A DNA stretch of 64,000 nucleotides from Amycolatopsis marina. Its GTDB lineage: Bacteria; Actinomycetota; Actinomycetes; Mycobacteriales; Pseudonocardiaceae. Below the pieces are notes generated by a model, which ran no database searches, was not told the origin of the DNA, and was given only the letters and a program-made list of their open reading frames with translations. The stretch spans positions 248,001 to 312,000 of the forward strand of contig NZ_FOKG01000007.1 of NCBI RefSeq assembly GCF_900111885.1, read 5' to 3'. Made by a program: the position numbers and the translations under genes. Shown here piece by piece: positions 45,439 to 57,374 of this stretch (positions are counted from its first letter, which is position 1; each line of letters opens with the position of its first letter).

Positions 45439-46854
45439 ATGTTGTCCCTGGTGGGTTTCCTGACCATCGGCGTGATCCTTGCGTTGCTGTTGACCAACCG
45501 GGTGGCCGCGGTGGTGGCACTGGCCGGTGTCCCGGTCGTCGGTGGTCTGGTCGCGGGCTTCACGCCGTCCGAGATCGGTGACTTCGTCGGCGACGGGCTT
45601 GGCGGAGTCGTCGGTGTCACGACGATGTTCGTCTTCGCCATTGTCTACTTCGGAGTGATGCGTGACGCGGGCATGTTCGACCCGGTCATTAGGCGCATTG
45701 TGACGTTCGCCGGGAACGCACCGGTCACCGTGTGCATGGCGACGACGGCGCTCGCCTGTGCGGCACACCTGGACGGCGCGGGCGCCACCACGTTCCTGAT
45801 CACGATCCCGGCGATGATGCCCCTGTTCGACCGGCTGGGAATGAGCCGGCTCGTCCTCACCACCTGCGTCGGTCTCGGTGCGGGCGTGATGAACCTGCTG
45901 CCGTGGGGCGGTCCGACCGCTCGCGCCGCGGCCGCGACCGGCGTGACGGCCAACGAACTCTGGGTGCCGCTGATTCCGGCGCAGGTCGCCGGAGTCGTCG
46001 CGGTCCTTGCCGTCGCGTGGTTCCTCGGGCGGCGCGAGCAGCGCCGGCTCACGGCCGGGAGCGGCGATATTCGCGAATCGGAGACCGTCCTCGCGGATGG
46101 GACACCGACCGCGCGGCCGGACGGCAAGGGCGGTTCGACGCACGTCCAGCAGGACGCGAACCCGGCGGAACGCTCAGCGCCGGGCAGCACACCGGTCGGC
46201 GACGAGCACAACGAGACCCTGCGCCGTCCGCGCCTGCTCTGGTTCAACATCCTGCTGACGGTCGCGGTCATCACCTGTCTCGTGGTCGCGGTGGCACCAC
46301 CGGAACTACTGTTCCTCGTGGCCGCGGTCATCGCCCTGTTGGTCAACTATCCGGGCCTGAACCGGCAGACCGCCCGGATCGAGGCGCACGCCAAGGGCGC
46401 CATGCTGATGGCAACGACGTTGCTCGCGGCAGGCGTGTTTCTCGGCATCCTCGAGGGCAGCGGGATGATCGACGCGATGGCGTCGAGTGCGGCCGGTGCG
46501 ATTCCCGACGGTGCAGCTCCCGCGCTACCGCTGATCGTCGGGGCGCTCGGCGTCCCGCTGAGCCTGGTGTTCGGTCCCGACGCCTACTACTTCGGGGTCA
46601 TGCCGGTCCTGATCGGTGTCGGCGAGCAGTTCGGCGTGCTGGGTACCCACATCGCCCAGGCCTCGCTCCTCGGCGAGGAGACGGTCGGTTTCCCGATCAG
46701 CCCGTTGACCGGGTCCTTCTTCCTGCTGGTGGGCCTCGGCGGAGTGCAGATCGGTAGACACATCAGGCATCTGATCGGCTGGGCGTGGCTGGTCAGCCTG
46801 GTGATGCTGCTCGTCGCCGTCGCCACGGGCGCCGTTCCGCTGTGGGCCGCATGA
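45439..46854 (+). CDS. CitMHS-family (citrate-Mg2+:H+ symporter) transporter
   Basis: A 471-residue secondary transporter with about eleven hydrophobic segments and a central hydrophilic loop near residues 195-265. Family motifs are CAAHLDGAGATTFLITIPAM, GGPTARAAAATG and VFGPDAYYFGVMP. ATG 45439 (MLSLVGFLTIG) is chosen with GAGAGG upstream; upstream starts lack a site and add a hydrophilic lead. Members carry citrate with divalent cations, but the AtuA partners suggest a different carboxylate here. The stop overlaps the AtuA gene. Confidence 0.9.
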   Translation: MLSLVGFLTIGVILALLLTNRVAAVVALAGVPVVGGLVAGFTPSEIGDFVGDGLGGVVGVTTMFVFAIVYFGVMRDAGMFDPVIRRIVTFAGNAPVTVCMATTALACAAHLDGAGATTFLITIPAMMPLFDRLGMSRLVLTTCVGLGAGVMNLLPWGGPTARAAAATGVTANELWVPLIPAQVAGVVAVLAVAWFLGRREQRRLTAGSGDIRESETVLADGTPTARPDGKGGSTHVQQDANPAERSAPGSTPVGDEHNETLRRPRLLWFNILLTVAVITCLVVAVAPPELLFLVAAVIALLVNYPGLNRQTARIEAHAKGAMLMATTLLAAGVFLGILEGSGMIDAMASSAAGAIPDGAAPALPLIVGALGVPLSLVFGPDAYYFGVMPVLIGVGEQFGVLGTHIAQASLLGEETVGFPISPLTGSFFLLVGLGGVQIGRHIRHLIGWAWLVSLVMLLVAVATGAVPLWAA

Positions 46855-48191
46855 GCGGCGCGGTCGTGCGGCTCGGCGCGGGGGCCGGGTTCGCGGGCGA
46901 TCGTCTCGACCCCGCCGTGGACCTGGCTCGCCGGGGCGACCTGGACTATCTGGTCTTCGAGTGCCTTGGCGAGCGAACCGTGGCCGCCGGGCACGCCAGT
47001 CGCCTGGACGATCCGGCAACGGGTTACGACCCACTCCTGGGTACCCGGATGCGCGCCGTGCTGCCGCACACCCTCGGTTCCGGCACCAAAGTGGTCACCA
47101 ACTCCGGGGCGGCGAACCCCGAGGCGGCGGGAAATCTGGTGGCGAACACCGCGGCGAGACTCGGTCTTCCGGCACGGGTCGCCGTCGTCACCGGGGACGA
47201 CGTCCTCGCCGCGGTGCGCCGCGCCGACCCGGTCGTCTGGGAGACCGGTGAGCCGTTGTCGACATGTCGCGACGAACTGATCTCGGCCAACGCCTACCTC
47301 GGTGCGGATCCGGTCGTCAGCGCACTCGAACTGGGAGCCGATGTGGTGATCACCGGGCGTCTCGCCGACCCAGCCCTCTACCTGGGACCGTTGCGGCACG
47401 CGCACGGCTGGGGCGCGGACGACTGGGACCCCCTCGGGGCGGGCACGGTTGTCGGTCACCTCCTCGAATGTGCGGGGCAGCTCACCGGCGGCTACTTCGC
47501 CGACCCGGTCACCAAACCGGTTCCCAATCTGGCGCAACTTGGATTCCCGTTCGCGGACGTCGCAGCCGACGGCACCGCCGTGCTCGGCAAACTGCCCGGC
47601 ACAGGCGGCAGGCTGGACACCCGCACCTGTGCCGAACAGTTGCTGTACGAGGTCGGCGAACCCAGTGCCTATCTGACGCCCGATGTCACCGCCGACTTCT
47701 CCCGCGTCGCGTTCACCACCGTCGGTGAGCACCGGGTGCAGGTGGCTGGCGCGAGCGGGCGGACCCGGCCGGAGCAACTCAAGGTCACCCTCGGGTTCCG
47801 CGGCGGCTGGCTGGGGGAGGGGCAGATCTCCTACGCGGGGCCCCGCGCTCTGGATCGCGCGAGACTGGCCGCGGACGTCGTGCGCGAACGACTCGTGAAG
47901 GTGCACGGACTGGCCGGGGAGGCGGTCGAGATCGAGTACATCGGGGCGGGTGCGGCGTTTCGCGGCTTGGCGCCCACAGGGGACCCGGTCGAGGTGCGGT
48001 TGCGGGTGTCCGCCCGCGTGCCCGATTCCGAACAGGCCGCGGCCGTGGGGTGGGAGGTGGAAGCGCTCTACACCAACGGTCCCGCCGGCGGTGGTGGGGC
48101 CAGAAAGGACAGTAACGAGGTTGTCGCGGTCCGGTCTTGCCTGCTTCCCCGACACCTGGTCACCCCCGCCGCGTACCTCGTGGAGGCATGA
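46851..48191 (+). CDS. Acyclic terpene utilization AtuA family protein (DUF1446)
   Basis: A 446-residue protein of the AtuA/DUF1446 family, named from a citronellol/geraniol degradation cluster of Pseudomonas. Typical blocks are LDYLVFECLGERT, VTNSGAANPEAAG, DVVITGRLADPALYLGPL and HLLECAGQLTGGYFAD. The C-terminal ferredoxin-like domain found fused in many members is absent here and is encoded by the next gene. ATG 46851 overlaps the transporter stop. The reaction catalysed by AtuA is not established. Confidence 0.9.
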   Translation: MSGAVVRLGAGAGFAGDRLDPAVDLARRGDLDYLVFECLGERTVAAGHASRLDDPATGYDPLLGTRMRAVLPHTLGSGTKVVTNSGAANPEAAGNLVANTAARLGLPARVAVVTGDDVLAAVRRADPVVWETGEPLSTCRDELISANAYLGADPVVSALELGADVVITGRLADPALYLGPLRHAHGWGADDWDPLGAGTVVGHLLECAGQLTGGYFADPVTKPVPNLAQLGFPFADVAADGTAVLGKLPGTGGRLDTRTCAEQLLYEVGEPSAYLTPDVTADFSRVAFTTVGEHRVQVAGASGRTRPEQLKVTLGFRGGWLGEGQISYAGPRALDRARLAADVVRERLVKVHGLAGEAVEIEYIGAGAAFRGLAPTGDPVEVRLRVSARVPDSEQAAAVGWEVEALYTNGPAGGGGARKDSNEVVAVRSCLLPRHLVTPAAYLVEA

Positions 48192-50335: not shown

Positions 50336-51145
50336 TCAGCTCGCGCCGATCGGCGCCCGGCCGTGTCGCAAACGCTTGCGCATGTCGCGAAGGTAGTACC
50401 GCTTCGGCGCCTCACGCAGCAGGACCGGCAGGCGGGGGTAGACGGCGACGCCGATCCGCATCAGCCGTTCGTACCGCCGTTGCCGTCGCTCGTCCCACTC
50501 GATCCCGAAGCCCTCCCGTAGCCGCGGCGCCAGCCATGCGGCGGTGAGCAGCCGGTTGAGCGGCATGGCCGCGCGGATGGCCACCGGTGCGCGCGAGGGA
50601 TACAGCAGATCGCGCGCTACCGACCGCGCGTGGTCCGTGACCTCGACCGTGGCGACCATGTGGTCCCAGTAGCCGCGGAACGCCGCTCGGTCCGCGGGCC
50701 ACATCTCGGGCGGTACCTGCAACGAGGTGGCCAGTACGGCGTACTCGCGGTAGATGCGCTCGGCGGCATCGTCCTCGATCGGGCCGAACATCTCTTCGTA
50801 GAGCAGGGTCGCGGTGTCGTACAGCGTCGCGGCGACCCACAGTTGCAGTTCCGGGTCTGTCGCGCGGTAGCCGGGGCCGCGCACCTTCGCGTGCACACGG
50901 TTGACCATGCGGCTGACCTGCCGGACCTCCTCCGGACTGCCGTAGGTCATGCAGTACACGTAGGTCAGTGTCGTCCGGAGCCGGTCGACCGGGCGGTACG
51001 CGAAGTCGCTGTGTTCGGCTACCCCTCGGCCGACACCCGGATTGGCCACCTGCAGCAGGATCGCCCGCGCGCCTCCCGCCAGCAGTACGCCCTCGCGGAC
51101 GACCCTGTGCATCTCGAGCGGTACCGGAACCGAATGCGAAGTCAT
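50336..51145 (-). CDS. Oxygenase MpaB family protein (DUF2236), copy 1
   Basis: A 269-residue member of the DUF2236 family, which includes fungal MpaB and the rubber oxygenase Lcp, heme or metal oxygenases. Blocks include GVLLAGGARAILLQVANPGVGRGVAEHSDF, where the usual His of the HP motif is Asn, YGSPEE, and MFGPIEDD. ATG 51145 is used. The 16-base site at 51158 lies just upstream and is shared with copy 2, so both should answer to the tandem-TetR regulator between them. Confidence 0.88.
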   Translation of the reverse strand: MTSHSVPVPLEMHRVVREGVLLAGGARAILLQVANPGVGRGVAEHSDFAYRPVDRLRTTLTYVYCMTYGSPEEVRQVSRMVNRVHAKVRGPGYRATDPELQLWVAATLYDTATLLYEEMFGPIEDDAAERIYREYAVLATSLQVPPEMWPADRAAFRGYWDHMVATVEVTDHARSVARDLLYPSRAPVAIRAAMPLNRLLTAAWLAPRLREGFGIEWDERRQRRYERLMRIGVAVYPRLPVLLREAPKRYYLRDMRKRLRHGRAPIGAS

Positions 51146-51157
51146 GACCGCACTGTA

Positions 51158-51173
51158 AATCTGAATTAACTTA
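51158..51173 (-). promoter_or_regulatory. Shared TetR-site candidate before DUF2236 copy 1
   Basis: On the minus strand this reads TAAGTTAATTCAGATT; the same sequence with one change (TACGTTAATTCAGATT) lies before copy 2 at 52519. It ends 13 bases before the ATG. AT content is much higher than in the surroundings. Confidence 0.7.
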
Positions 51174-51225
51174 CTGGGAAGTCCATAGGGATAAGTTGCA
51201 GGTAGATCGGCTGCATCGCACCGAC

Positions 51226-52422
51226 TCAGCTTGCGAGCGCGGCGAACACCAGATATTCGACCTGTGCGCTGTCCGTGATTCTGCGCCGGCTCATCGACAG
51301 GTCGTGCACGATGTTCAGCGCGGCGTGTACGACGAGGCGCGCGTGGGCGCCCCTGGTGTTCTCCCGGACGGCGGTCAGCAGCCGCACCCACTGCTCGACG
51401 TGCTCGCGTTGCACCTTGCGCAGCGTGTGCCGGTCGTCGTCGGGGAGATTCTCGTATTCCGACAGGTACACCGCCGCGAGATCGCTGTGCTCGAAGGCGA
51501 AGCCGACGTACGCGCGAACCAGTTCCCGCAGCACCGCTCCCGGTTCCCCGGCGTTCTCGATCGCGGCGTTCGTCGTGGCCGTGAGCCGGTCCGCCGCACG
51601 GTAGTAGACCGCGGCGAGCAGATCGGCCTTGCTCGGGAAGTGCCGGTAGACGCTCGACCCGCTGATCCCCGCGGCGACGCCGATGTCCTCCATGGTCACC
51701 CCGTGGAAGCCGCGTTCCCGGAACGGCCGCAGCGCCGCCGCGAGGAGCCGCTCCCGGCGCGAGCCGAACTCGCCAACAGCGGGCTCCGGTGCGGGCTGAG
51801 CCGGTTCCCCGGCCAGCCGGGGTGGGAGCCCCGTGGCCAACACCCCGAGTCCGACGGCACGCAGCCCCTCGGTCGCGGCACGCGCGGTCAGCGGCGTGCG
51901 ATGGGTGGACAGGCTCGCCACGGCGCTCAGTGCCGCCGATGCCAGTGTCCGGTGGTCGGCCGCGGGAAGCCGTGGCCGCACCTCGCCGAGCAGTTCGGCG
52001 ACGACGTCGACGAGTGCGGCGATCGCGGCGGTGAACCGGTCATGGTCCTCGCTGCCGAGATATCGCCGTTCCCACTGGTAGAGCTGCACACTGCGCCTGC
52101 GTTCGACGACGAGTCCGACGACCTCGGAGATGATGTTCTCGAGTCGTTCCCCCGGTGAACGGCCGGTGCGCGCCGCCGGGCTCGTCAGCCGCTCGAGAGC
52201 GGCCGAGAGGTCCGCCGTCGCGTAGGCGAGGATCGCCTGCTTGTTCCGGAAGTGGCGGTAGATCGCGGGCCCGGTGATCCCGGCCTCCGTGGCGATCTCG
52301 CCAAGACCGACGGTGTAGTACCCGCGCTCGCAGAACAGGTCGGCGGCGATCCTGGCGATTTGGGATTTGCGGTCACCGCGGCGCCGTGGCGGTGCCGCGG
52401 GCTCCGTGATCGACTCGCTCAT
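51226..52422 (-). CDS. Tandem-TetR transcriptional regulator (Mce3R-like)
   Basis: A 398-residue repressor with two complete TetR DNA-binding domains: the first at about 17-63 (AADLFCERGYYTVGLGEIATEAGITGPAIYRHF) and the second at about 219-265 (FRERGFHGVTMEDIGVAAGISGSSVYRHF), each followed by a helical ligand domain. This unusual double plan is that of Mce3R (Rv1963c, about 400 residues), the repressor of the mce3 operon. Here too it stands beside an mce operon. It lies between two DUF2236 genes that share a 16-base upstream site. A lipid or sterol ligand is likely. Confidence 0.92.
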   Translation of the reverse strand: MSESITEPAAPPRRRGDRKSQIARIAADLFCERGYYTVGLGEIATEAGITGPAIYRHFRNKQAILAYATADLSAALERLTSPAARTGRSPGERLENIISEVVGLVVERRRSVQLYQWERRYLGSEDHDRFTAAIAALVDVVAELLGEVRPRLPAADHRTLASAALSAVASLSTHRTPLTARAATEGLRAVGLGVLATGLPPRLAGEPAQPAPEPAVGEFGSRRERLLAAALRPFRERGFHGVTMEDIGVAAGISGSSVYRHFPSKADLLAAVYYRAADRLTATTNAAIENAGEPGAVLRELVRAYVGFAFEHSDLAAVYLSEYENLPDDDRHTLRKVQREHVEQWVRLLTAVRENTRGAHARLVVHAALNIVHDLSMSRRRITDSAQVEYLVFAALAS

Positions 52423-52493
52423 CCCGCACCTCCATCGGCAGTTCCTTGCCGCAGCGAACGATTTTCACTCTACGCGGCAGCGCGTCACGTCTC

Positions 52494-52534
52494 TTGACAA
52501 CGTGCCCTGTCAGTCGGCTACGTTAATTCAGATT
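52494..52534 (+). promoter_or_regulatory. Promoter and TetR-site candidate of the mce operon
   Basis: TTGACA at 52494-52499 is a perfect -35; TACGTT at 52519-52524 is a fair -10 at 19 bases. TACGTTAATTCAGATT (52519-52534) covers the -10 and equals the site at 51158 with one change. Repressor binding here would block RNA polymerase. Confidence 0.65.
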
Positions 52535-52572
52535 CGCATGGCCGCCCAGGATGCTCTCGCGGGAGGATGCCC

Positions 52573-53433
52573 ATGGACGACGACGTCCAGCTTGCTGCCG
52601 AGACACTTCCCGGCCCCGGCTCGGTCACCTGGCGGCGATTCGCCCGGGCCCCAGGTGTCCTTCTCGCCGGAACGGGCCTGCTGCTGCAGGTCGCCCACCC
52701 GGTTGTGGGCGCGGGCGTGCTGGAGCACTCCGACTTCCGCCGCCGGCCCTGGACGAGGGCGTGGCGGACCCATCTGTCGACCTTACGGTTCGTCTACGGC
52801 ATGGGCGAGGGTGCGCACGCCGAGGGGCGCAGGCTGATCGAGGTGCACAAGGGCATCAAGGGCGTCGACTCGGCGGGGCGGCGCTACCACGCACTCGACC
52901 CGCACGCGTACGCCTGGGTCCACCTGACCCTGGCCCGTTTCATGGTGGACACCGCCGCCCTGTTCGGCGATCCGCTGACCGAGCCCGAACTAGCGCAGAT
53001 GTGGCGCGAGTTCCGGATGATCGGGCTGGCGCTCGGACTGAAGGAACAGCATCTCGCGCCCGACTGGGCTGCCGCGAGTGCGCACTTCGACGCCGTGGTC
53101 CGCGACACCCTGGAGGCGAACGAGAGCACACGGGACGTACTGGAGGCGCTCACCGCGCCCGCAAAGCCGTCCCGGTTCCTCCCCGATCCACTGTGGAAGC
53201 TGCTCACGCTTCCCGCGGGCCGCGTTCTCCGGCTGACCACGGTCGGCTCGCTGCCACCGGTGCTGCGGCAGCGGATGGACCTGACCTGGACCGAGCGGGA
53301 CGAACGCAGTCTGGCGCGGCTCGCACGGGTCGTCCGCGCCGTCGACCGCAGGCTGCCGGAACCGCTGCGCTACCCACCGCTCGCCTACGGCGTCATCGTG
53401 CGGGAACGCCTGCGCCGCCGCAGGGCGGTGTGA
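52573..53433 (+). CDS. Oxygenase MpaB family protein (DUF2236), copy 2, first gene of the mce operon
   Basis: A 286-residue DUF2236 protein with the canonical LLLQVAHPVVGAGVLEHSDF block (His retained, unlike copy 1), YGMGEGAHAEGRRLIEVHKGIKG and LDPHAYAWVHLTLARF. ATG 52573 is six bases after GGGAGG; the ATG at 52567 abuts that site. Its TGA overlaps the YrbE-A ATG, so it is translated with the transporter. Oxidation of an imported sterol, terpenoid or rubber-like lipid is a reasonable inference. Confidence 0.9.
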   Translation: MDDDVQLAAETLPGPGSVTWRRFARAPGVLLAGTGLLLQVAHPVVGAGVLEHSDFRRRPWTRAWRTHLSTLRFVYGMGEGAHAEGRRLIEVHKGIKGVDSAGRRYHALDPHAYAWVHLTLARFMVDTAALFGDPLTEPELAQMWREFRMIGLALGLKEQHLAPDWAAASAHFDAVVRDTLEANESTRDVLEALTAPAKPSRFLPDPLWKLLTLPAGRVLRLTTVGSLPPVLRQRMDLTWTERDERSLARLARVVRAVDRRLPEPLRYPPLAYGVIVRERLRRRRAV

Positions 53434-54242
53434 TGGGCGCCGAGGCTCCACCCGGGCGGGGTGCTGTCGCGGACGCGTTCACCCAGGCAGGAATGTTGCT
53501 GGCCTTCGCCGTGCAGACCGGACGCGCGACCGTCCGCGTCGTCCTCCGGCGCAAGCTCGCCTGGCGGGAGGTGCTGGAGCAGTCCTGGTTCCTCGCGGCC
53601 GTGACCACCACACCTGCCCTCCTGGTGACGATTCCGCTCGGGGTCGTCGTGGCGCTCAACGTCGGCTCCATGGCAGGCCAACTGGGGGCGGAAGGCTACG
53701 GCGGCGCCGTGGTGGCGTTCGTCATCGTCGCGCAGGCCTCCCCGCTGATCTGCGCGTTGATGATCTCCGGTGTCGGCGGCTCCGCCCTGTGTGCCGACCT
53801 CGGCGCGCGCACCATCCGTGAGGAGGTCGACGCACTGGAGGTCATGGGCATCCCCGCGATCGAGCGCTTCGTCGTTCCCCGCGTCATCGCCGCGGTTCTC
53901 GTCACGACGGCACTCGCGTGCCTGGTCATGGCGGTCGGCATATCCGCCAGCTTCGCGTTCCAGGTGATCGTGCTCGACGACTCTCCCGGCAGTTTCCTCG
54001 GCACTCTCACCCAGTTCTCCCGCGTCGAGGACTTCCTGATCGCGGAGGTGAAGGCGGCGTCCTTCGGGGTGCTCGCCGCGCTCGTGTCCTGTTTCAAGGG
54101 GCTCACGGCCAAGGGCGGTCCCAGCGGGGTCGGCGACGCCGTCAACGAGGCGGTGGTGCTGTCGTTCATCCTCGTTTTCGTCGCCAACACCGTTCTCACC
54201 GAACTGTATTCCGTCATCGTGCCTGCGCGAGGGGCGTACTGA
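53433..54242 (+). CDS. yrbEA: MCE transporter permease YrbE-A (MlaE family)
   Basis: A 269-residue permease of the MlaE/YrbE family, one half of the membrane core of an Mce lipid importer. It has about five membrane helices and the motif DALEVMGIPAIERFVVPRVIA, the EAM-like loop that contacts the MceG ATPase. The gene overlaps the DUF2236 stop by one base. No MceG ATPase gene is in the window; in actinobacteria one ATPase serves several systems. Confidence 0.95.
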   Translation: MGAEAPPGRGAVADAFTQAGMLLAFAVQTGRATVRVVLRRKLAWREVLEQSWFLAAVTTTPALLVTIPLGVVVALNVGSMAGQLGAEGYGGAVVAFVIVAQASPLICALMISGVGGSALCADLGARTIREEVDALEVMGIPAIERFVVPRVIAAVLVTTALACLVMAVGISASFAFQVIVLDDSPGSFLGTLTQFSRVEDFLIAEVKAASFGVLAALVSCFKGLTAKGGPSGVGDAVNEAVVLSFILVFVANTVLTELYSVIVPARGAY

Positions 54243-55090
54243 TGGCCGTGCGTCCCCTCGGTGGCTACCCGGCGCGCGTCACCGCGCCGGTGGTCGACAC
54301 GTTCGCCGGGATCGGCAGGCACACCACCTTCTACGGACGGGTTCTGCTGCACCTGCCGAGCGCCGTCGTCCGGTACTGGCGGCACGTGCTCAAGCTCATC
54401 GGTGAGATCAGCTTCGGATCCGCCTCGCTGCTGGCGGGTGGCGGGACGATCGGCGTCGTCTTCGCCATGTCCGCCGTGGCCAGTACCCAGATCGGGCTGG
54501 AGGGCTACCGCGGGCTCGACCTCATCGGGCTTTCCCCGATGACGGGGCTGATGTCGGCACTGGTGAACACCAGGGAGATCGCTCCCGTTGTCGCGAGCAT
54601 CGCGCTGGCGGCCAAGGTCGGCACCGGCTTCACCGCGCAACTCGGTGCGATGCGGATCTCCGACGAGATCGACGCACTCGAAACGATGGCGGTGCCGTCG
54701 CTGCCGTTCCTCGTGAGCACCCGCATGGCGGCCGCGTTCATCTCGGTGATCCCGCTCTACCTGGTGGGACTGTTCGCCTCCTACGCCGCGACAAGCCTGG
54801 CCGTAGTCCACATCAAGGGCCAGTCCTCGGGCACCTACGACTACTACTTCCAGCTGCTGCTCACGCCGACCGACGTGCTGTACTCCCTGCTCAAGGCGGT
54901 CATCTTCGCGGTGATCATCACTTTGGTCCACTGTGGATACGGCTACTACGCGACCGGCGGGCCGGAGGGGGTCGGCAGGGCCGCGGGCAGGGCGCTGCGC
55001 ACGAGCATCGTCACCGTGACGATCGTCGACGTCCTGCTGACCATCGGGTTCTGGGGCCTGCGGCCCACCCTGCCAGGGCTGGGAGCGTAG
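54242..55090 (+). CDS. yrbEB: MCE transporter permease YrbE-B (MlaE family)
   Basis: Second permease, 282 residues, with the matching motif DEIDALETMAVPSLPFLVSTRMAAAF and about five helices. ATG 54242 overlaps the YrbE-A stop (TGATG). YrbE-A and YrbE-B pair as a heterodimer through which the lipid enters. The KVGTGFTAQLGAMRISDEIDAL stretch is well conserved. Confidence 0.95.
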   Translation: MAVRPLGGYPARVTAPVVDTFAGIGRHTTFYGRVLLHLPSAVVRYWRHVLKLIGEISFGSASLLAGGGTIGVVFAMSAVASTQIGLEGYRGLDLIGLSPMTGLMSALVNTREIAPVVASIALAAKVGTGFTAQLGAMRISDEIDALETMAVPSLPFLVSTRMAAAFISVIPLYLVGLFASYAATSLAVVHIKGQSSGTYDYYFQLLLTPTDVLYSLLKAVIFAVIITLVHCGYGYYATGGPEGVGRAAGRALRTSIVTVTIVDVLLTIGFWGLRPTLPGLGA

Positions 55091-55092
55091 CC

Positions 55093-56364
55093 ATGGCCTT
55101 ACAGACGAGCAGGGTCGCGCTGGCTCTCCGCGGGCTCGCCGCCGCTGTGGCGTTCGTACTGGTCGCCGTCGTGACGATCGCGGGAAGCGGCGGCGCGTTC
55201 GACGACGATCCCACCGTGAGTACCACCCTGCCCGCGTCGGCCGGGCCGGTGCGCGCCGATTCGCCGGTGCAGTACCTGGGGGTCACCGTGGGCAGGCTGG
55301 CCGCTGTGGACGGCGATCTCGACGGCGCGCGCCTCAGCCTGCGCATGCATGCCGACCTGCTGGAGCAGGTGCCGGCGAACGTACGAGCCAGGGTGCTGCC
55401 CCGCACGCTGTTCGGTGACCAGTACATCGATCTCGCCGTCCCGGCGGAATCGCGGGCGGAGGGAAACCTGGTCGAGGGGGCGGTGCTCGCGGCCGACACC
55501 TCGGGCGAGACCGTGCGGCTCTACGCCGCGTACACCCGCCTGTACGAACTGATCACCGAACTGCGGCCCGCGGACCTGCAGGTCGCCCTCACCGCCCTCG
55601 CCGACGCACTGCGCGGACGTGGCGCGGAGATCGGCACCATGATCGACGAGGCGAGCGAGCTCGCCGAGGACGCCGGGCCGCTGCTCGACTTACTCGGCGA
55701 GGACGTGAACACCGCCGCCCGGCTCGGCAGGGACCTCGCGGGGGCCGCACCGGACCTGCTTGCCTCGCTCGACGACGCGGTCGCGCTCTCCCGCACCGTG
55801 GTCGCGGAACGGCAGGCGCTGAGCGACCTGCTCACCGCGGGCATCGAGCTTTCCGGGCAGTCCGAACGGCTGCTCGCCGACCATGCCGATCGGTTCATCC
55901 AGCTCGTGCACGCGACCGGTCCGCTCGCGGAGGCGGTGACGCGCCACCCCGGAGCGGTCGGTGAGAGTCTGGACGCGGCGGATTTCTTCCTCGACGGCGC
56001 CAAGCGTGCCTTCGGTACCGGCCGGTTCGCCATCGATGCCGCCCTGACCTTCGACGACCCCTACCCGTACACCGCGGCGGACTGTCCCCGCTATCCCGGT
56101 CTGGACGGCGCCAACTGCGGCGACTCGGTGCGGGAGCGCGGGACGGGGGACGAAGCGGCCGCGGCACCGGCGGCACCACCGCCTCCGCTCCCGGAAACCG
56201 GCGGGCTCACCGGGCCTGTTGGTGGTGAGCGGGAGCGAGAGGTCATCCGGCAGCTCGCACCTCTGCTACCGGACGGCGACTCCACAGCCGAGGAGCAACC
56301 CGTGGACCAGTTGTCCCTGTTGCTCGGCCCGCTCGTGCGGGGGACGCGGGTGGTGGTGCCATGA
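55093..56364 (+). CDS. mceA: MCE family protein MceA
   Basis: A 423-residue secreted, membrane-anchored lipid-binding protein. An N-terminal helix (about 12-33) is followed by an MCE/MlaD domain (about 38-115: PASAGPVRADSPVQYLGVTVGRL...LFGDQYIDLAVP) and a long helical region (about 145-320) that forms part of the periplasmic tunnel in a hexamer of MceA-F. The C-terminal 90 residues are low in order. Two bases separate it from YrbE-B. Confidence 0.93.
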   Translation: MALQTSRVALALRGLAAAVAFVLVAVVTIAGSGGAFDDDPTVSTTLPASAGPVRADSPVQYLGVTVGRLAAVDGDLDGARLSLRMHADLLEQVPANVRARVLPRTLFGDQYIDLAVPAESRAEGNLVEGAVLAADTSGETVRLYAAYTRLYELITELRPADLQVALTALADALRGRGAEIGTMIDEASELAEDAGPLLDLLGEDVNTAARLGRDLAGAAPDLLASLDDAVALSRTVVAERQALSDLLTAGIELSGQSERLLADHADRFIQLVHATGPLAEAVTRHPGAVGESLDAADFFLDGAKRAFGTGRFAIDAALTFDDPYPYTAADCPRYPGLDGANCGDSVRERGTGDEAAAAPAAPPPPLPETGGLTGPVGGEREREVIRQLAPLLPDGDSTAEEQPVDQLSLLLGPLVRGTRVVVP

Positions 56365-57374
56365 GCGACCGGCATGTGCGTGCGACTCTGGTCAAGCTCG
56401 CCGCCTTCGTGGCGGTGTGCGTGTTCTCCGCGGTGCTGGTGGTGAACACGCTCACCGACCCGCTGACCGGGCGAAGCCACACCTACCACGCGGTGTTCAC
56501 CGATGCGCACGGACTGAATCCGGGGACGGACGTCACCGTCGCTGGTGTCCGGGTCGGCACGGTGACCCGACTGGAGCTTGTGGACGGACGCGCCCACGTC
56601 ACCTTCGACGCACGAGCGGACCAGCAGGTGCCCGCGGACGTCCGGGCCGTGGTGCGCTACGCCGACCTGCTCGGAGCCCGCCATCTCGCGCTGGTTCCGG
56701 GCGAGAGCGGGCCCGTGGGCGAACTCGAACCCGGCGCGACGATTCCGCTCGACCGCACCAGGCCCGCACTCGACCTCACGGCACTGTTCAACGGTTTCAA
56801 GCCGCTGTTCGACTCCATCGATCCCGCGGAGGTCAACCAGCTCGCCAGGGAGATCGTGGCGGTGTTCCAGGGCGAAGCCGGCTCACTGGACGGACTGCTC
56901 AGCAAGGTGGTGTCGCTGACCGCGGTCCTCGGCAGCCGGGACGACGTGCTCGGCGAGGTGCTGACGAACCTGAACGCGGTGCTGGACACCATGGGCGAAC
57001 ACCGGACCGACCTCGCAGGTCTGGTCGACGGCCTCGCCGAGCTGACCTCGTTCGCGGCGGACAGCCGCGAGCGGATCGCGGGGGCCCTGGACGGCGGTGC
57101 CGAACTGGCGGGTTCTCTGACCAGCCTGCTCGCCGACATCGGACCGGACCTCTCGACAGACGTGCGGCGGCTGCGGTCACTGACCTCGACCATGGTGGAG
57201 AACGAGCGGGAGTTCGAAGCCGTGGTGCGGGAGGCGCCGGAGTTCGCCTCCACGCTCGGGCGCACGCTGGACTACGGCTCCTGGGTCAACGTCTACGTCT
57301 GCAACCTCGGCGTCGACATCGGCGGCGAACCGATCGACCTCGGTGTGGGCCCGCATTCGGAGGTGTGCCGATGA
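56361..57374 (+). CDS. mceB: MCE family protein MceB
   Basis: A 337-residue MCE protein, overlapping MceA by four bases (ATGA). Features are an N-terminal helix (about 8-30), the MCE domain HAVFTDAHGLNPGTDVTVAGVRVGTV, a helical domain with heptad-like pattern (about 115-300) and a C-terminal Cys pair region (YVCNLG, EVCR) typical of MceB. One subunit of the Mce hexamer. Confidence 0.94.
   Translation: MSDRHVRATLVKLAAFVAVCVFSAVLVVNTLTDPLTGRSHTYHAVFTDAHGLNPGTDVTVAGVRVGTVTRLELVDGRAHVTFDARADQQVPADVRAVVRYADLLGARHLALVPGESGPVGELEPGATIPLDRTRPALDLTALFNGFKPLFDSIDPAEVNQLAREIVAVFQGEAGSLDGLLSKVVSLTAVLGSRDDVLGEVLTNLNAVLDTMGEHRTDLAGLVDGLAELTSFAADSRERIAGALDGGAELAGSLTSLLADIGPDLSTDVRRLRSLTSTMVENEREFEAVVREAPEFASTLGRTLDYGSWVNVYVCNLGVDIGGEPIDLGVGPHSEVCR

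Follow-up and report, generated by a model that had tools for sequence, protein, structure and literature searches.

A conserved 20-bp site as the probable operator of a tandem-TetR regulator between two divergent DUF2236 genes

The window analysed here, a 64,000-nt stretch of Amycolatopsis marina DNA, contains two divergent DUF2236 genes on either side of a gene for a regulator with two TetR domains. The same 16-bp sequence stands before both DUF2236 genes, which raises the question of whether it is the operator of the protein encoded between them, and whether this arrangement extends to other members of the family.

The repeated site and its neighbouring genes

The left DUF2236 gene (50336–51145, minus strand) encodes a protein of 269 residues and the right one (52573–53433, plus strand) a protein of 286 residues. 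An earlier note had named DUF2236 genes on both sides, and this assignment was confirmed by the MPAB_Lcp_cat domain (PF09995, formerly DUF2236, the MpaB/rubber oxygenase domain) in each of them, with E values of 9.2e-69 and 7.7e-63 and scores of 232.4 and 213.1 bits against a curated cut-off of 23. Aligned with one another over 255 columns, the two proteins share 35% identity. The right gene, whose start we chose by a GGGAGG sequence 6 nt before it, is the first gene of an operon with the mce gene order, in which two YrbE/MlaE permease genes (53433–54242 and 54242–55090, plus strand; PF02405 twice) are followed by at least two Mce genes, the first two of which were scanned (55093–56364 and 56361–57374, plus strand; PF02470 and PF11887 twice). 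The regulator gene (51226–52422, minus strand) encodes 398 residues. Its product contains PF17932 in two stretches and matches Mce3R, and the two TetR domains that had been described for it are borne out by TetR_N (PF00440), also in two stretches. The closest named relative is the protein from Amycolatopsis palatopharyngis, with 87% identity.

The left 16-mer (TAAGTTAATTCAGATT, 51158–51173, minus strand) and the right 16-mer (TACGTTAATTCAGATT, 52519–52534, plus strand) match with 0 mismatches, as the earlier note had stated, and each has the orientation of the DUF2236 gene downstream of it. These two are the only matches in the window at up to three mismatches, for which 100 shuffles gave a mean of 0.03. 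The window's own genome (7,019,024 bases, 7.02 Mb) contains no third match at up to two mismatches and three further matches at three. The extent of 16 bp holds for the exact match; among relatives, however, the conserved unit is 20 bp long, non-palindromic and of the form TANGTTAAYNNNNATTYRCA, and its middle four bases vary. The candidate right operator (TACGTTAATTCAGATTCGCA, 52519–52538, plus strand) and the candidate left operator (TAAGTTAATTCAGATTTACA, 51154–51173, minus strand) are both exact matches to this unit. In an alignment of the right intergenic region from 10 orthologous sequences, the longest invariant blocks are CTTGAC, GTTAAT and ATTCGCA, the last two within the operator. The corresponding blocks of the left region (six sequences) are CTT, AAGTTAAT and ATTTACA, again with the last two in the operator. 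The four spacer bases are the same in both window sites and variable in relatives; in A. palatopharyngis (L218) the right-site spacer is CCGA compared with TCAG in the window, and the left site is unchanged. Agreement of these four bases between two sites is therefore no rule, and the exact 16-bp identity of the window pair is partly accidental.

Association of the site with tandem-TetR genes

When 298 genomes of the order were searched with the 16-mer, matches adjoining regulator orthologues were found in two other genera. At up to two mismatches there were 24 sites in 23 genomes, with the window pair counted in, and two of them adjoin orthologues (G243 and G251). Relatives of the window protein were found in 109 of the 298 genomes (match at E <= 1e-30). 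Around 30, then 40 tandem-TetR loci, the motif TAnGTTAAYnnnnATT(C/A)GCA was recurrent about 50–200 bp upstream of the regulator. We scored the pattern TANGTTAAYNNNNATTNGCA in the 300 bp upstream of 105 tandem-TetR genes (100 loci, among them those from which the pattern was derived) and found it before 20, 43, 56 and 71 of the 105 genes at no mismatch and at up to one, two and three mismatches, respectively. At the same thresholds, 30 column-permuted patterns gave means of 0, 0, 0.03 and 0.73, the reversed pattern gave 0, and the background in 3169 further 300-bp stretches taken from these loci was 0, 1, 3 and 18. Divided by identity to the window protein, the site was present at up to two mismatches upstream of 47 of the 59 genes with at least 37.5% identity and 9 of the 46 below this value.

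Of the 48 named relative loci, L218–L241 were scanned for sites and L242–L265, which are weak, partial relatives, were left out; the scripted gene calls at relative loci are crude and some starts are wrong. Once the pattern had been fixed, 16 orthologue loci (L266–L281) were retrieved as a held-out set, and all 16 carry the upstream site at up to two mismatches. Overall, this site was identified at up to two mismatches in 28 of 30 orthologue loci, a count that includes some species twice and from which L227, a paralogue without the site, was excluded. The remaining two loci, from one Prauserella species, have it at three mismatches. Ten of the 30 also resemble the window in having a second site 3' of the regulator gene at up to two mismatches. 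Outside the order, the upstream site was found in one of eight loci at up to two mismatches and in six of eight at up to three, so the predicted operator code drifts with distance and fades in distant relatives. No such site was found for the C15 paralogue in the window's own genome (47% identity).

Two further arrangements were observed among the relatives. The loci L082, L090 and L102–L104, all of one genus, have two head-to-tail operators 19 bp apart before the divergent gene, which encodes an enoyl-CoA hydratase in L082, the one scanned. L063, and L142 with the same layout, contain at least two consecutive tandem-TetR genes beside thiolase and FadB genes.

The genes behind the site differ between loci. 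Of 29 orthologue loci, 24 contain a gene related to the right DUF2236 gene, and in 13 of these 24 a YrbE gene lies within the available DNA; with the mce genes this patchy, the right-hand target that is kept more steadily is DUF2236, and mce is variable. Neither YrbE nor Mce was found in the 6 kb of the Saccharopolyspora locus L226, and neither DUF2236 nor mce genes were found at L060/L220 (one species), where the site has three mismatches. At L281 the right site is intact, yet the scanned adjoining ORFs gave no Pfam match. In Prauserella cavernicola (L222), the right site precedes genes for FadD and an acyl-CoA dehydrogenase instead of DUF2236. In the window, L218 and L280 the gene behind the left-type site is DUF2236; in L226 and L279 its place is taken by an acyl-CoA dehydrogenase gene, and in L275–L278 and L281 by a gene of comparable length (judged by size only). 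In distant relatives, whose targets were judged from Pfam-scanned representatives and like-sized neighbours, the same plan is found before thiolase–FadB and enoyl-CoA hydratase–FadD pairs. At L151, where the site faces the regulator, the divergent genes code for FadD, an MpaB-type protein and a PETase-like hydrolase. Since the site is kept when the target changes, we consider it to belong to the regulator and not to the target.

The identified targets belong to acyl-CoA metabolism or to lipid uptake. More than one regulator is active in these processes, and the site could in principle be owned by another of them, with the tandem-TetR gene being merely its target or neighbour; an inverted repeat that adjoins the right site in the Amycolatopsis/Prauserella group would also be compatible with this. 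A global lipid regulator should, however, have many sites elsewhere. In the 21 genomes with an orthologue, TANGTTAAYNNNNATTYRCA at up to one mismatch gave 25 sites, of which 24 are beside the regulator gene (reversed control, 4), and the site follows the tandem-TetR gene through the target changes described above. We consider ownership by another lipid regulator improbable. The 25th site, the one outlier, belongs to the genome of the window and precedes a gene for an AMP-binding (FadD) protein; occurrence of the motif before unrelated genes, which the earlier note had named as a refutation, was checked in this way and did not refute the reading. In four of the 21 genomes the sites have two or three mismatches and none has fewer. 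Taken with its persistence through target swaps, this distribution upholds, on comparative grounds, the link of site and regulator in a predicted compact two-promoter regulon.

The relaxed pattern TANGTTAAYNNNNATTNRCA at up to two mismatches gave six sites in the window's own genome. Besides the window pair, these are a site upstream of the gene for a tandem-TetR paralogue (C24), a pair before FadD and a site on C20, which has two mismatches and has Clp_N and PP2C genes nearby instead of lipid genes. At up to three mismatches there were 78 sites and 79 for the reversal, which means that weak matches carry no information. The two sites before FadD are operator-like sequences 120 bp apart at L160 (C18:152858–152877 and 152978–152997). 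One of the pair is a weaker copy, and the second has a spacer-type geometry like that of the window's left site; this FadD gene is a possible third target. Elsewhere in the order, G175, from another family, has an exact 16-mer that overlaps the end of an ORF and lacks the complete 20-bp extension; none of the window's genes were found within 1.5 kb of it. Three 16-mer matches in one genus (L134, L050 and L051), each with two mismatches, are about 10 kb from a tandem-TetR gene. The one checked, at position 16530 of L134, has an mce operon on one side and a divergent DUF2236 gene on the other, a weak parallel in which the window's gene set appears in another order.

We also considered a terpene or sterol ligand on account of the neighbouring AtuA gene (46785–48191) and dropped it, as that gene has no site.

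Placement of the site relative to promoter-like sequences

Before the right DUF2236 gene, a candidate -35 element, TTGACA (52494–52499, plus strand), stands 19 bp before TACGTT (52519–52524, plus strand), which lies within the operator and, by its fit to TANNNT and its spacing, is the predicted -10; TTGAC is invariant in the 10 orthologous regions. On the left, a -35-like TTCCCA (51175–51180, minus strand; CTT invariant in the six regions) stands 17 bp before the putative -10, TACAGT (51152–51157, minus strand). As the ATG starts only 6 nt past TACAGT, in the window and in L218, the left-gene mRNA is probably leaderless. The placement of the site at both promoters that had been claimed thus agrees with the predicted elements, in registers that differ: the site is on the -10 on the right and between -35 and -10 on the left. 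An automated promoter scan, restricted to spacers of 16–18 nt, found none.

We extended this analysis to sites with up to two mismatches and enough flanking sequence, which came from 86 of 131 tandem-TetR genes and, after removal of near-copies, comprised 50 distinct sites pointing away from the regulator and seven pointing toward it. TTGACA (up to one mismatch) is located 17–19 bp before TAnGTT in 48 of the 50 away-pointing sites, with a spacing of 19 bp in 38, 18 bp in seven and 17 bp in three, whereas 225 of 40,000 random positions have this geometry and none of the seven regulator-facing sites has the -35. For left-type sites, the -10 in 13 of 14 rows is TACAGT or TACACT and is formed by the end of the site itself, L068 being different. 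The window's closer relatives have a TTCCCA/TTGCCA-like -35 17 bp before it, so that the operator fills the spacer; a -35 of this kind was not seen at the left-type sites of the more distant L064–L066.

A good -10 such as TAnGTT at this distance from TTGACA in nearly all away-pointing sites would need no operator at all if the shared sequence were just a strong and conserved core promoter, or were recognised by a particular sigma factor. Against this, the conservation extends past the -10 through ATTCGCA, left-type sites carry the same 20-mer in a different promoter register, and near-exact sites in the 21 genomes are almost confined to the surroundings of tandem-TetR genes. We judge a promoter element of this sort to be very improbable as the whole explanation of the site.

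Two other features of the right intergenic region were observed. An inverted repeat, TTGACA-N8-TGTCA (52494–52512), covers the -35 and is kept in most orthologues of the Amycolatopsis/Prauserella group but not in those of Saccharomonospora or Saccharopolyspora; it could be the site of a second regulator. TAGAGT (52467–52472, minus strand) is conserved too and is a candidate -10 for transcription of the regulator gene itself, from a promoter that would stand back to back with that of the target.

Relation to Mce3R and proposed mode of action

Among tandem-TetR proteins, Mce3R has reportedly been the subject of a footprinting study by Santangelo et al. It is also the best solved relative of the window protein (Rv1963c; 9b7y_A, residues 9–378 against 5–375, E 9.3e-37), and the two systems share one chain with two TetR domains and an adjoining mce operon. 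According to the available text of PMC11667970, Mce3R is a single-chain TetR protein with two unlike heads about 32 Å apart and a non-palindromic operator, and yrbE3A is preceded by two Mce3R sites of 25 bp each, 53 bp apart. A non-palindromic operator near the target promoter is therefore common to both systems, the one in the window being defined as a conserved sequence. In contrast, the window has one site at each of two promoters where that text gives Mce3R two spaced sites before yrbE3A, and the first targets in the window are DUF2236 genes, unlike those of Mce3R. Two unlike heads in one chain, as in Mce3R, would explain a non-palindromic site in the TetR family.

Orthologues of Mce3R were identified in 46 of 248 genomes of one genus, taken to be Mycobacterium. 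Motif finding in 12 of their intergenic regions (among L188–L208) gave a ATGTATYTTGATAATCCG-like site in 12 of 12, with a ATGTCYATGARCGATAYG-like second site 76–77 bp from the first shown for five of the 12. This separation is consistent with two 25-bp sites 53 bp apart as given in the available text of PMC11667970, and the two are probably the known Mce3R operators. That the window protein is itself a Mce3R orthologue and its site the Mce3R motif is scarcely credible in spite of the full-length match and the adjoining mce operon, as the orthologues of this genus are 70–88% identical to Mce3R and those of them among the matches listed for the order 33–35% to the window protein, their loci have the window site in 0 of 30 cases (1.5 kb upstream, up to three mismatches), and the consensus of the different conserved sites found there comes no closer to the window motif than shuffles do. 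Transfer of the Mce3R motif to the window was rejected on these 30 loci, and an ATGT...AT plan common to Mce3R sites and the window motif was dropped, being equalled by 61–64% of shuffles. The likeness to Mce3R that the earlier note had drawn holds for the protein but not for the site: by these comparisons the window protein is built like Mce3R yet does not have its operator.

Other TetR systems were compared with that of the window. KstR, KstR2 and BkaR share the TetR fold and catabolic targets and, according to the available text of PMC4482099, have palindromic operators; the window regulator has a non-palindromic site and both heads on one chain. The same text describes many TetR genes as divergent to their targets. 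The fadAB-linked tandem-TetR relatives (thiolase and FadB; for example, L074) have the same operator plan, TATGTTARTNNNNATTAGCA, and a TTGACA-19-TAnGTT promoter. They differ in having A at operator position 17 and proline in the second recognition helix, where the window has C/T and serine, and in targeting beta-oxidation (L074, by Pfam) where the window targets mce. Judged by gene sizes, L089 in the window's own genome is probably such a relative.

These substitutions bear on which head would read which half of the site. By alignment, the first recognition helix region of the window protein corresponds to residues 48–58 (GITGPAIYRHF; 52249–52281, minus strand) and the second to residues 252–262 (GISGSSVYRHF; 51637–51669, minus strand). 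With serine at residue 256, operator position 17 is C or T in 54 of 54 proteins; with proline it is A in 32 of 34, and in the other two (L092 and L116) it is A as well once the away-pointing site is read. In terms of short motifs, GPS in the second helix goes with ATTAG, and serine at that position with ATTC or ATTT. This covariation amounts to one single change on the tree, and for that reason we offer it only as a suggestion that residue 256 may read operator base 17. For the first helix, P52 accompanies GTTAA in 67 loci and GTGAA in two, S52 accompanies GTGAA in all three loci that have a site (one of them from another order), and alanine accompanies GTTAA in four and GTGAA in two. These small and mixed numbers are suggestive of a tendency of residue 52 to track the operator base that distinguishes GTTAA from GTGAA.

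Based on these results, we hypothesise that TANGTTAAYNNNNATTYRCA is very probably the operator of the tandem-TetR protein, which would occlude two divergent lipid-gene promoters until it is released by a ligand. The direct basis of this model is the site itself, its conservation, its place relative to promoter-like sequences and its link to the regulator gene, and from these we infer the promoters in use, binding, repression, the assignment of heads to half-sites and the ligand. One polypeptide would provide two unlike DNA-reading heads, for GTTAAY and ATTYRCA. With the half-sites about one helical turn apart and in fixed order, a single molecule would read the site in one direction. Regulator bound at 52519–52538 would cover both the -10 and the start region of the operon that runs from DUF2236 through YrbE to Mce, and regulator bound at 51154–51173 would occupy the -35/-10 spacer of the left DUF2236 promoter, such that ligand-free protein on both operators would keep RNA polymerase off both promoters. 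Release is expected to be brought about by a ligand of lipid origin; judging from the range of targets in the family, an acyl-CoA-type metabolite is the likeliest.

A -35/-10 spacing of 19 bp is over-long and typical of MerR-controlled promoters. With this MerR-like spacing in most of the away-pointing sites, tandem-TetR proteins might conceivably be switches and not only roadblocks. A wider version of the model, in which a family-wide code (GTTAA read by head 1, ATTNRC by head 2) applies, single operator bases separate the paralogues of one genome and ligand-bound protein may act as such a switch by also aiding RNA polymerase, appears to us unlikely, if worth stating.

In the open-access literature we found no tandem-TetR operator except that of Mce3R, whose sequence does not carry over to relatives of the window type. 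The analysis provides a testable predicted binding code for a class of repressors whose sites are poorly known, and short DNA for binding and ligand assays. Natural variants of operator and helix offer a route to the recognition code of a one-chain asymmetric TetR protein. A consensus that is valid for dozens of these proteins, together with its promoter register, would make unannotated regulators predictable switches of beta-oxidation, lipid import and DUF2236 genes.
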